Shown here in pieces: positions 54,860 through 58,533 of a stretch of 64,000 nt of DNA. This DNA comes from Rhodocyclales bacterium. Its GTDB lineage: Bacteria > Pseudomonadota > Gammaproteobacteria > Burkholderiales > Rhodocyclaceae. The translations under genes and the position numbers were made by a program. Within the stretch, counting starts at the first letter, position 1; each line of letters opens with the position of its first letter. The notes under the pieces are model-generated. The model saw only the letters and a program-made list of their open reading frames with translations. It was not told the DNA's origin and ran no database searches. The stretch covers positions 1 through 64,000 of the forward strand of contig JAPLQX010000031.1 in assembly GCA_026399435.1 (NCBI GenBank), given 5' to 3'.

Positions 54860-55927
54860 ATGAAGCACATTACCGACGACGTCCGCATCCGCGAGATCAA
54901 GGAACTCTCACCCCCCGGGCACATCCTGCGCGAGTTTCCGGCCACCGATCTGGCGGCGGAAACCACCTACGAGGCGCGCCAGGCGGTGCATCGCGTGTTG
55001 CACGGCGCCGACGGCCGCCTGGTGGTGGTGGTCGGACCCTGCTCGATCCATGACTACGACGCGGCGATGGAATACGCGCGCAAGCTGCGCGCGGAGGCCG
55101 CGCGATTTGACGACGACCTGCTGATCCTGATGCGCGTGTATTTCGAGAAGCCGCGCACCACGGTGGGCTGGAAGGGGCTGATCAACGACCCGCGCATGGA
55201 TGGCAGCTTCCGGATCAATGACGGCCTGCGCCTGGCGCGCAAGCTGCTGTGGGAAGTCAATGAGCTGGGCCTGCCTTGTGCCACGGAATTTCTCGACACC
55301 ATCACGCCGCAATACACGGCGGACCTGATCAGCTGGGGCGCGATCGGCGCGCGCACCACGGAATCGCAGGTGCATCGCGAACTGGCCTCGGGCCTTTCCT
55401 GTCCCGTTGGTTTCAAGAACGGCACCGACGGCAACATCAGGATCGCCGTCGATGCGATCAAGGCTGCGGCCAGTCCCCATCATTTTCTGTCGGTGACCAA
55501 GGCGGGCCACTCCGCCATCGTGTCCACCAACGGCAACGAGGACTGCCATGTCATCCTGCGCGGCGGCAAGACGCCGAATTACGACGCCGCGGCGGTCGAT
55601 GCCGCGTGCACCGAGCTGGGCAAGGCCGGTCTTGCGGCGCGCGTTATGATCGACTTTTCGCATGCCAACAGCAGCAAGCAGTTCAAGCGCCAGATCGACG
55701 TCGCGCGCGATGTGGCGGCGCAGATGGCGGCCGGCGAAGACCGCATCTTCGGCGTCATGATCGAGTCGCATCTCAAGGAAGGCCGGCAGGATCTGACGCC
55801 GGGCAAGCCGCTTGAATACGGCGTTTCGGTCACCGATGCTTGTATCGGCTGGGATGACACGCTGGTCGCGCTGGAAATTCTCGCCGACGCGGTGAAGGCT
55901 CGCCGCATCGCCCTCGCCGACAAGTAA
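54860..55927 (+). CDS. aroG: 3-deoxy-7-phosphoheptulonate synthase
   Basis: VVVGPCSIHDYDAAMEYA, MRVYFEKPRTTVGWKGLINDP, GFKNGTDGNIRIAVDAI, DFSHANSSKQ. Confidence 0.95.
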   Translation: MKHITDDVRIREIKELSPPGHILREFPATDLAAETTYEARQAVHRVLHGADGRLVVVVGPCSIHDYDAAMEYARKLRAEAARFDDDLLILMRVYFEKPRTTVGWKGLINDPRMDGSFRINDGLRLARKLLWEVNELGLPCATEFLDTITPQYTADLISWGAIGARTTESQVHRELASGLSCPVGFKNGTDGNIRIAVDAIKAAASPHHFLSVTKAGHSAIVSTNGNEDCHVILRGGKTPNYDAAAVDAACTELGKAGLAARVMIDFSHANSSKQFKRQIDVARDVAAQMAAGEDRIFGVMIESHLKEGRQDLTPGKPLEYGVSVTDACIGWDDTLVALEILADAVKARRIALADK

Positions 55928-55936
55928 GCCGCAAGC

Positions 55937-57649
55937 ATGACCGGCCGCCTGTTCGCCGCGCTGCTGGTCCTGACGCTGGTTTTCCGCTTCTGGCTGGCGG
56001 CGGCGTTTCCGATCACCGGCGACGAGGCCTATTTCATCTGGTGGGGCTGGAAACCGGACTGGGGCTTCTACGACCATCCGCCGATGATCGGCTGGTGGCT
56101 CGCTGCGCTGCTGAAGCTGAGCGACGCCGAATGGTGGCTGCGTCTGCCGGTCATCCTGCAGCCGGCGCTGCTTGCCCTGGGCGTGTATTGGGCGCTGCCG
56201 CGACTGGTCGCCGGAACTGGGGGTGCCCCCGGCCGGGAAGAATCGTCCCGGCCGCCCCCCATGGGGGCCAAGTCGTTCTTGGGGCGGCCCGGCGAACGAC
56301 TTGACGACGAACGCCGGCTGTGGGCGGCCGTGCTGGTGCTGCTGGCGCCGGTGAGTGTCTGGAACGTGTTCATCACCACCGACACGCCGCTGATCTACTT
56401 CAGCGTGTTTTCCGGACTGGCATGGATACGAGTCTCCCGCGACGGCGAAGGGGATGGAACGCGCAGTCGCGCTTGGCACTGGTATCTGGCCGCCGGCCTG
56501 CTGCTGGCGGGGGCGGTGCTCTCCAAGTATTTCGCGGCGATTCTCGGCTTCGCCTATCTGGTGGATGTGCTGAGGCGGCGCAAGTCCGGCGCATGGACCG
56601 GGCTGGCCATCGCCTATGCCTGCACGCTGCCGGCGCTGGCCCTGATGGCCTGGTGGAACAGCGGCCATTGCTGGCCGAACTACATGTTCAACTTCGTCAA
56701 TCGCCACGGCGATGCCGGCTGGTCGCTGAAGACGCCGCTGCTCTATGTGGTGACGCTGATTTATGTGCTGGGGCCGCCGGTGCTTTGGCTGGCGTGGCGC
56801 AATCGCCGCGTTGTGGGGCCGGCTTCAGCCGGCCAAGGAGTTGATGGCGGTGTAGGGCCGGCTTCAGCCGGCCAAGGAGTTAATGGCGGACTAAAGTCCG
56901 CCCTACGGTCCGCCCTACGGTCCGCGCCACCGCAATCGGCGCTCGGCACGCTGGCGTGGGTGCCCTTCGTGCTGTTCGCCGGGCTTTCGCTGGTGAAGCA
57001 GATCGGCCTGCACTGGCTGCTTTCCTTCGTGCCCTTCGCCCTGATCTGGCTTGCGCTGCGCCTGACACCCGTCAGCTTGCGCCGTCTCGGCCTGTTCTTC
57101 GCCGGATTTGCGCTTGCGCACATTGCCGGCATCCTGGTCGTATCCCGCGTGCCGCTGGAAACCTGGCAGAAGACCCGGCTTTACGACGGCATCGTGCTGA
57201 GCTTTGAACATCAGGCGCTGGCCACGGAACTGCAACCGTATCGTCAGGACTGGGTGCTGGCGATGGACGGCTATTCGAATGCCGTGACACTGGGCTACAA
57301 CCTGCGCCAGTACGTCGTGGTCTTCGGCGAGGCGTCGAGCCATGCCCGGCACGATGATCTGGTGACCGATTTCCGCGCACTTGCGGGGCGCAACTTCCTG
57401 ATCCTGAGGAAGTCCGCACCGAACCTGGACGACTACCGCAAGTATTTCCGCCAGGTCAGTGCGGACAGCTTCGAGATACGCGGCGCGCGCTTCTGGCGGG
57501 TGAAGGGCGAGAGCTTCGACTATGCGGCCTATCGCGACGGGGTGCTGGCGGTCGTCAGGCAGAAATACTATGCGATTCCGGCCTGGTTGCCGCAAACTGC
57601 GTGCTACATGTGCGATCGATATTTCCCGGGGGAAGCATGCCGTCGTTGA
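55937..57649 (+). CDS. GT39/ArnT-like integral membrane glycosyltransferase
   Basis: FPITGDEAYFIWWGWKPDWGFYDHPPMIGWWLAALLKL (catalytic DE near first loop); multiple TM segments. Confidence 0.85.
   Translation: MTGRLFAALLVLTLVFRFWLAAAFPITGDEAYFIWWGWKPDWGFYDHPPMIGWWLAALLKLSDAEWWLRLPVILQPALLALGVYWALPRLVAGTGGAPGREESSRPPPMGAKSFLGRPGERLDDERRLWAAVLVLLAPVSVWNVFITTDTPLIYFSVFSGLAWIRVSRDGEGDGTRSRAWHWYLAAGLLLAGAVLSKYFAAILGFAYLVDVLRRRKSGAWTGLAIAYACTLPALALMAWWNSGHCWPNYMFNFVNRHGDAGWSLKTPLLYVVTLIYVLGPPVLWLAWRNRRVVGPASAGQGVDGGVGPASAGQGVNGGLKSALRSALRSAPPQSALGTLAWVPFVLFAGLSLVKQIGLHWLLSFVPFALIWLALRLTPVSLRRLGLFFAGFALAHIAGILVVSRVPLETWQKTRLYDGIVLSFEHQALATELQPYRQDWVLAMDGYSNAVTLGYNLRQYVVVFGEASSHARHDDLVTDFRALAGRNFLILRKSAPNLDDYRKYFRQVSADSFEIRGARFWRVKGESFDYAAYRDGVLAVVRQKYYAIPAWLPQTACYMCDRYFPGEACRR
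56216..56302 (+). repeat. Palindromic repeat block inside the glycosyltransferase CDS (block 1)
   Basis: ggccggga..tcccggcc and AAGTCGTTC(56270-56278)/GAACGACTT(56294-56302); encodes TGGAPGREESSRPPPMGAKSFLGRPGERL. Confidence 0.8.
56815..56925 (+). repeat. In-frame palindromic tandem repeats inside the glycosyltransferase CDS (block 2)
   Basis: 39-bp unit gggccggcttcagccggccaaggagttgatggcgg... at 56816 and 56855, then ggcggactaaagtccgcc and two ccctacggtccg units; encodes VGPASAGQGVDGGVGPASAGQGVNGGLKSALRSALRSA. Confidence 0.9.
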
Positions 57650-58533
57650 TGCCGTCGTTGCTGCGTCTGATGCGCCCGCACCAGTGGCTGAAGAACGGCT
57701 TCGTCTTCGTCGGGCTGCTGTTCGGCCACGCCTGGACCGACCCGGTCAAGCTCGGGCAGGCGCTGGCCGCCTTTGCCGCCTTCTGCCTGCTGGCGTCCGC
57801 CGTGTATGTGATGAACGATCTGATCGACCGCGAGCAGGATCGGCTGCATCCGAAGAAGAAGAGCCGGCCGCTGGCGGCGGGCACGGTGAGCGGCCCTGCC
57901 GCCCTTACCCTCGCCGCGGTGTGCCTGATTGCCGGTGGCACCATCGCCTGGCAGTTCGCCGGCTCGGCGCCATGGATCTTCTTCGCCTATGTCGCGCTCA
58001 ACGTCGCGTACAGCTTCGGCCTCAAGCACGTCGTCATCCTCGATGTCTTCATCATCGCCTCGGGCTTCATGCTGCGCATCCTGGCCGGCACCCTGGGCCT
58101 CGGCATCGCACCGTCGCAGTGGCTGCTGCTGTGCGGCCTGATGCTCACGCTGTTTCTCGGCTTCGCCAAGCGCCGCGCCGAACTCAACGCGCTGCTGGCC
58201 GACAGTGCCGGTCACCGTCGCGTGCTGGAACACTACACGGCACCCATGCTCGACCAGTTCATCGGCATCGCCGCGGCGGGAACGGTGATCTCCTACGCGC
58301 TCTATACGGTGAGCGCGGAGACCATGGCCCTGCACGGGACGCGCGGCCTGATCGCGACCGTGCCCTTCGTGCTCTACGGCATGTTGCGCTACCTGTGGCG
58401 TCTGCACACCCGCGGCGGCGGCGGCGATCCGGCGCAGGAACTGCTGACCGATCCGCATCTTCTGGCGGCGACGGCGGGATGGCTCTTGTTGGTGCTGGCC
58501 CTGCTGGGCGGGGCTATAATGCCAAAGCCATGA
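57637..58533 (+). CDS. UbiA-family prenyltransferase, decaprenyl-phosphate phosphoribosyltransferase-like
   Basis: LMRPHQWLKNGFVFVGLLFGHAW, YVMNDLIDREQDRLHPKKKSRPLAAG, NVAYSFGLKHVVILDVFIIASGFMLR. Confidence 0.85.
   Translation: MPSLMPSLLRLMRPHQWLKNGFVFVGLLFGHAWTDPVKLGQALAAFAAFCLLASAVYVMNDLIDREQDRLHPKKKSRPLAAGTVSGPAALTLAAVCLIAGGTIAWQFAGSAPWIFFAYVALNVAYSFGLKHVVILDVFIIASGFMLRILAGTLGLGIAPSQWLLLCGLMLTLFLGFAKRRAELNALLADSAGHRRVLEHYTAPMLDQFIGIAAAGTVISYALYTVSAETMALHGTRGLIATVPFVLYGMLRYLWRLHTRGGGGDPAQELLTDPHLLAATAGWLLLVLALLGGAIMPKP

Follow-up and report, generated by a model that had tools for sequence, protein, structure and literature searches.

How a glycosyltransferase (GT) gene comes to contain palindromic blocks and still encodes an uninterrupted protein is the question raised by this locus, which lies in a 64,000-nt stretch of DNA (the window) from an uncultured Sulfuritalea-like bacterium, known from an assembly in 57 contigs that is 81% complete. 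The original prediction described two blocks in the gene as dispersed, intergenic-type repeat DNA that keeps the frame open. All the repeats it named were located within the coding sequence, with slightly shifted limits (Table 1); the GT gene has received two short hairpin-forming mobile repeats, unrelated to each other, and has kept its reading frame. The 570-aa frame, with a GDEAYF motif near the N terminus, runs uninterrupted through both inserts and encodes the peptides that had been given. In an AlphaFold model of the protein (pTM 0.85) both inserts are low-confidence coils or loops (pLDDT 44-62) with confident helices on either side, and the model and the orthologue alignment agree with the expected position between transmembrane segments, namely in a linker or loop between predicted helices. 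We consider it very probable that the blocks are two different non-autonomous palindromic repeats that were independently inserted in loops of the GT and are near-neutral and inherited.

Table 1. Features of the glycosyltransferase gene and its two inserts, in window positions.
Feature	Position	Strand	Basis or remark
CDS, 570-aa polytopic glycosyltransferase (PMT_2, GT39/ArnT-like)	55937-57649	+	domain match, orthologue alignment
DAHP synthase gene	54860-55927		neighbour of GT gene
UbiA-family gene	57601-58533		neighbour of GT gene
Block 1, 84-bp three-hairpin insert encoding TGGAPGREESSRPPPMGAKSFLGRPGERLDD region	~56222-56305	- (relative to most in-gene copies)	absent in orthologues
Helix C, GGCCGGG-AAGAATCGT-CCCGGCC	56231-56253	.	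stem varies between copies, compensating changes
Helix C as given in the original prediction, GGCCGGGAAGAATCGTCCCGGCC	56231-56253		sequence
Helix B, GCCCCCCATGGGGGC	56254-56268	.	sequence/structure
Helix A, arms CAAGTCGTT / AACGACTTG	56269-56303 (arms 56269-56277, 56295-56303)	.	sequence/structure
17-nt core CTTGGGGCGGCCCGGCG inside helix A	56278-56294		core in every other genus genome searched
39-bp direct repeat	56808-56846 / 56847-56885		tandem duplication holding REP units 1 and 2
Palindromes GGCCGGCTTCAGCCGGCC	56817-56834 and 56856-56873		sequence
REP unit 1, GTGG-tagged, GTGGGGCCGGCTTCAGCCGGCC	56813-56834	+	sequence, genome matches
REP unit 2, GTAG-tagged, GTAGGGCCGGCTTCAGCCGGCC	56852-56873	+	sequence, genome matches
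Inverted GTAG REP, GGCGGACTAAAGTCCGCCCTAC	56885-56906	-	like arrangement at intergenic copies
Palindrome GGCGGACTAAAGTCCGCC	from 56885		sequence
Two 12-bp CCCTACGGTCCG units (at 56901 and 56913), REP-cluster tail	56901-56924	.	related tails at intergenic copies

The gene was compared with 71 related loci and in an alignment of orthologues; judged by the GT, the genome stands closest to Sulfuritalea MAGs (82% identity), and MAGs make up many of the genomes compared. Block 1 was missing at its site from every full-length GT orthologue in the direct comparison, and tblastn of the GT did not find it in 26 other genus genomes, the match breaking at residues 93-95/122-124 wherever both sides were covered. 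Close to the block-1 site, one related locus (L114) contains a different, unrelated insert. Measured against empty orthologues, block 2 extends over ~56811-56930 and corresponds to residues ~291-332, inserted where a short linker joins two predicted membrane helices. Among the Sulfuritalea GT orthologues a REP insert was present in the same linker in just one other MAG (L060), where it has more forward units than in the window and a different frame near its end, and overall is still in frame; the GT carrier pattern of G217, from a second genome collection, is the same as that of L060.

Copies of the blocks in the window genome were counted from searches and retrieved stretches of that genome, which gave one other full copy of block 1 and six other loci matching block 2 DNA. 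The sole other full copy of block 1 found there (80-bp, 89%, E 1.6e-23) lies in frame, in opposite orientation, inside the gene for PEP carboxylase (PEPC). None of the six block-2-like loci (E <= 1.5e-5) lies in a coding frame, and most have direct and inverted units; codon-frame analysis of their flanks shows that genes end or run elsewhere, never through the repeat. Because of the block 1 copy and the six block 2 loci at these E values, both repeats are far beyond chance. Neither segment is therefore unique in the genome, and orthologues lack the inserted residues save for the one block-2-like insert; both outcomes support the original prediction, which holds in its main points. The notion of intergenic-type DNA suits block 2 as it stands; for block 1, the one other full copy that the searches gave in this genome is itself inside a gene. 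A PEPC hit was obtained in 28 genus genomes, and the insert, with a net length of 87 nt, was present in the window genome and G117 only; in the 26 empty ones the tblastn hits are split at residues 103/131, and those read directly show LLGSRxxLQE-type sequence. Comparison with empty sites revealed no target-site duplication at block 1, either in the GT or in PEPC.

By its tag, stem and unit arrangement, block 2 belongs to the GTAG-REP clusters (BIMEs), elements of an already known kind. Its direct units are two copies of GTRGGGCCGGCTTCAGCCGGCC in the 39-bp tandem, followed by a GTAG palindrome in inverted orientation and a tail of two units. An unpaired GTAG or variant tag stands at the end of each short palindrome (GTAG at 56852, GTGG at 56813 and CTAC, the inverted GTAG, at 56903-56906), and its copies are dispersed, intergenic at the six other loci, and mostly combine direct with inverted units. 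In a related MAG (L100) the linker that holds block 2 carries an in-frame palindrome, CGTCATTCCCGC..GCGGGAATGACG (CGTCATTCCCGCGAAAGCGGGAATCC...GGATTCCCGCTTTCGCGGGAATGACGA, peptide VIPAKAGIQ...DSRFRGND), an example of the CGTC-tagged palindromes (ATTCCCGC..GCGGGAAT type) that are absent from the window GT gene; this loop is therefore a repeated landing place. Two other MAGs (L068, L106) have in that linker a short related insert, PAKRNPxxAER, possibly from another repeat family.

Block 1 belongs to a different family, of which nine copies could be aligned over 83 nt, gap-free and with 96% of cells paired, in three main hairpins with double (compensating) changes at 7 pairs. The covariance model matched block 1 at 56225-56307 on the minus strand, and a survey with it gave family members in 76 of 399 genomes and in 28 of 68 Rhodocyclaceae genera. 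Two subclasses were distinguished: one of 83 nt, with arms CAAGTCRWT, and one of 79 nt, which is mostly intergenic-looking in the loci examined. Rfam 15 gave no family above threshold in the window save a tRNA and no credible one in the related loci that were searched, and an open-literature text search for the core sequence found no paper; as far as these searches go, block 1 looks like an undescribed repeat family. Three known identities were considered for it and rejected: GTAG or CGTC REP, the family consensus being without such a tag; MITE, with no target-site duplication at the GT and PEPC sites and no parent element found; and structured RNA of Rfam 15, with no match to a curated family.

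A codon-usage score, trained with Sulfuritalea-type genes, served to assess the coding frame on either side of each copy, and host gene families were confirmed by Pfam/NCBIfam. The element is read through in a single frame in PEPC, RsmB, TIGR02678/DUF2398, pyruvate dehydrogenase (PDH) E2, FlhF, UreD, a phage terminase and the window GT; in the terminase it is a variant of the element that lies inside the large subunit gene (L246:758-1822). The insertions have dispersed with the frame retained, and some are shared between species: RsmB (rRNA methylase) copies occupy one common site in 3 species (L190, L197, L201), those in TIGR02678/DUF2398, a family that we take to be part of Wadjet-type defence operons, one common site in 2 genera (L191, L199), and PEPC copies occur in 2 species (L009, L192). 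In 5-FTHF cyclo-ligase the upstream frame is open through the element and the downstream score is ambiguous. Weaker in-frame cases comprise a DUF7064/7065 protein, two proteins that hit no family, a putative M48-peptidase-like C terminus read from the translation, and an ECF sigma N terminus whose true start may lie downstream of the element. Among the loci of the 83-bp class that were examined, no copy was recognised as breaking a gene. The peptide TSxSPGRPKxDLAPxGGG recurs in six homology-supported genes, while the GT, UreD and terminase read the other strand; PEPC, RsmB, TIGR02678, PDH E2, 5-FTHF ligase and FlhF have the +0 frame in common, and the +1 frame is open in 9/9 copies, yet no use of it was seen.

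In species pairs that share an insert, pN was 0.03-0.15 and pS 0-0.26 within the insert, compared with pN 0.02-0.08 and pS 0.22-0.38 in the flanks. With pN about equal to or above pS, amino-acid constraint is therefore not visible in block-1-type inserts. Total insert divergence was lower than flank synonymous divergence, most strongly in PEPC, where 90 nt differ at 2 positions; the numbers are small. This slower-than-synonymous change was noted for RsmB, TIGR02678, PEPC and the GT (window, L060). Since fully neutral inserts should diverge like synonymous sites and these diverge less, some DNA-level constraint or repair may be at work, and the slow change could result from DNA-level constraint, from palindrome self-correction or from exchange between lineages.

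The low divergence, which lacks codon periodicity, and the strong predicted structure with covariation would also agree with a segment kept for a role in the mRNA, such as a pausing or processing hairpin. We find this improbable, however: the functions of the host genes are unrelated, the element is found in either orientation, each site is empty in most genomes, and the Rfam search points the same way. It is also hardly to be expected that block 1 is programmed for coding sequence, through a mobilising system that favours genes or a codon phase. Although the majority of the best-scoring copies are in frame in genes, with +0 common and the open +1 frame not seen in use, the frame preference is explicable by selection on the encoded peptide, intergenic copies of the 83-nt class lie upstream of glnB-, mutL-, guaB- and dnaG-like genes (named from translation), and bacterial genomes are mostly coding, the numbers being small. 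Still less credible, and very unlikely in our judgement, is that the inserts serve the protein as adaptive loops and only happen to be encoded by palindromic DNA: the one +0 frame in six proteins and the persistence of the RsmB and TIGR02678 inserts across species would suit it, but the pN values, the occurrence of the same sequence in unrelated proteins, in several frames and between genes, and the compensation of stem changes at the DNA level all speak against it. An artefact of MAG assembly or binning can be practically discarded, despite the fragmented and incomplete assembly, as the PEPC insertion and a block-2-like insertion each occur in another genome, the RsmB sites in three genomes, and repeats of ~80-110 bp are shorter than a typical read.

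The 17-nt core of block 1 has a wider distribution than the element itself, with 5-40 exact copies in each of the 25/25 genus genomes searched and 0 in reversed controls, and in the window genome it stands nearly always between copy-specific complementary arms. Many core copies form the last hairpin of an abundant ~110-nt three-hairpin element between genes, which ends arm-CTTGGGRCGGCCCNGCG-arm (loci L026/L320, L336, L325, L013/L350, L356 and ~20 others of G000); its right arm is the target sequence, often a Shine-Dalgarno sequence and ATG, and its left arm the inverted copy of that target. No Rfam family corresponds to this element. The sucA-sucB spacer, readable in 13 genomes, is without it in 10 and contains it in 3. 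At L336 a copy of the target CGGAGAAAT flanks the element on either side and a third, inverted one adjoins the core, and the same pattern, with target GCGGCATGA, was obtained at a second locus by comparing the start sites of L350-L369; at the two loci with empty relatives, the best-preserved copies show a 9-bp direct target duplication. In a count of 25 copies, a few rows of which are orthologous, internal arm and right flank matched in inverted form over at least 6 nt in 92%, against 8% in mismatched pairs, and direct duplications of at least 6 nt were present in 32%, against 10%. It looks as though the ~110-nt element contains its insertion site in inverted form, and this inverted copy may be made at insertion, arise by palindrome correction or be selected as a hairpin occluding the ribosome site. 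Tentatively, and with more doubt than confidence, block 1 might have branched off, in a form compatible with coding sequence, from a new superfamily of mobile palindromes that share the core CTTGGGRCGGCCCNGCG. Its ~110-nt members would duplicate the target (9 bp in the best-preserved copies) and leave an inverted target copy across the core, so that the last hairpin of each copy would include the site at which that copy inserted, in many cases the next gene's ribosome-binding site and start codon.

Returning to the reading of two near-neutral inserted repeats, block 1, as a member of a Rhodocyclaceae-wide family of ~83-87-bp three-hairpin elements, and block 2 would have entered loops of the GT independently, each mobilised by a putative enzyme acting in trans, and the block 2 cluster would also gain and lose whole REP units. 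Wherever it was measured, the net length gained is divisible by three, and several frames are open; therefore, 28-29 mostly hydrophilic residues are added and the rest of the protein is left intact. Selection would purge gene-breaking insertions, and those in permissive loops would persist as near-neutral decoration, inherited and with DNA slow to change, on proteins that presumably still function. Neither repeat was found nearby in 30 loci read around Y1-transposase genes of the genus, and neither of the two Y1_Tnp genes in the window genome, at its 81% completeness, is a RAYT flanked by block-2 units. At L295 (G000:C30) two tandem Y1-transposase (RAYT-like) genes have AAAGTCAAATGACTCTGACCCC-type flanks, without GTAG units or core.

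Palindromic repeats that have spread in frame through essential enzymes are best known in Rickettsia, and genome reduction is frequently invoked there. In the present case a different bacterial family does likewise with an unrelated element, in central enzymes (PEPC, PDH E2, rRNA methylase), and many sites are empty, so the effect of the added segment on fold and activity is testable with natural plus/minus pairs.

Among known systems, block 2 resembles the GTAG-tagged REPs and BIMEs defined by Di Nocera et al. 2013, who list intragenic cases in Thauera and O. terrae (PMC3733652): in common are the GTAG tag, the short perfect stem, the clustered direct and inverted units, the intergenic copies between convergent or co-directional genes and an in-frame intragenic case. 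The likeness is one of description; the host genus was not encountered among theirs, and no RAYT gene flanked by block-2 units was found. ERIC/IRU and Correia/NEMIS MITEs are, like block 1, short and non-autonomous, and their in-frame fusion with ORFs is known (PMC2229807); they have terminal inverted repeats, whereas block 1 has three consecutive hairpins and no target duplication. Block 1 differs from the Rickettsia palindromic elements (RPE; Ogata et al.; reviewed in PMC2229807 and PMC10969869) in its hosts, Betaproteobacteria that as far as known are not obligate intracellular, in its length of 83-87 bp versus 105-150 bp and, as set apart from RPE-4/-6 by description, in a consensus that starts CTCACAAGTC and is missing the CGTC end motif. 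The likeness to RPEs that the original prediction saw, in another lineage and with another sequence, is borne out by the block-1 family: as with RPEs, copies are in frame in many unrelated conserved proteins, the frame and peptide recur, insertion sites are common to species and intergenic copies also exist. By analogy, then, the real parallel to the Rickettsia RPEs is block 1 and not block 2, and block 1 behaves like an RPE, a likeness of conduct rather than of identity.
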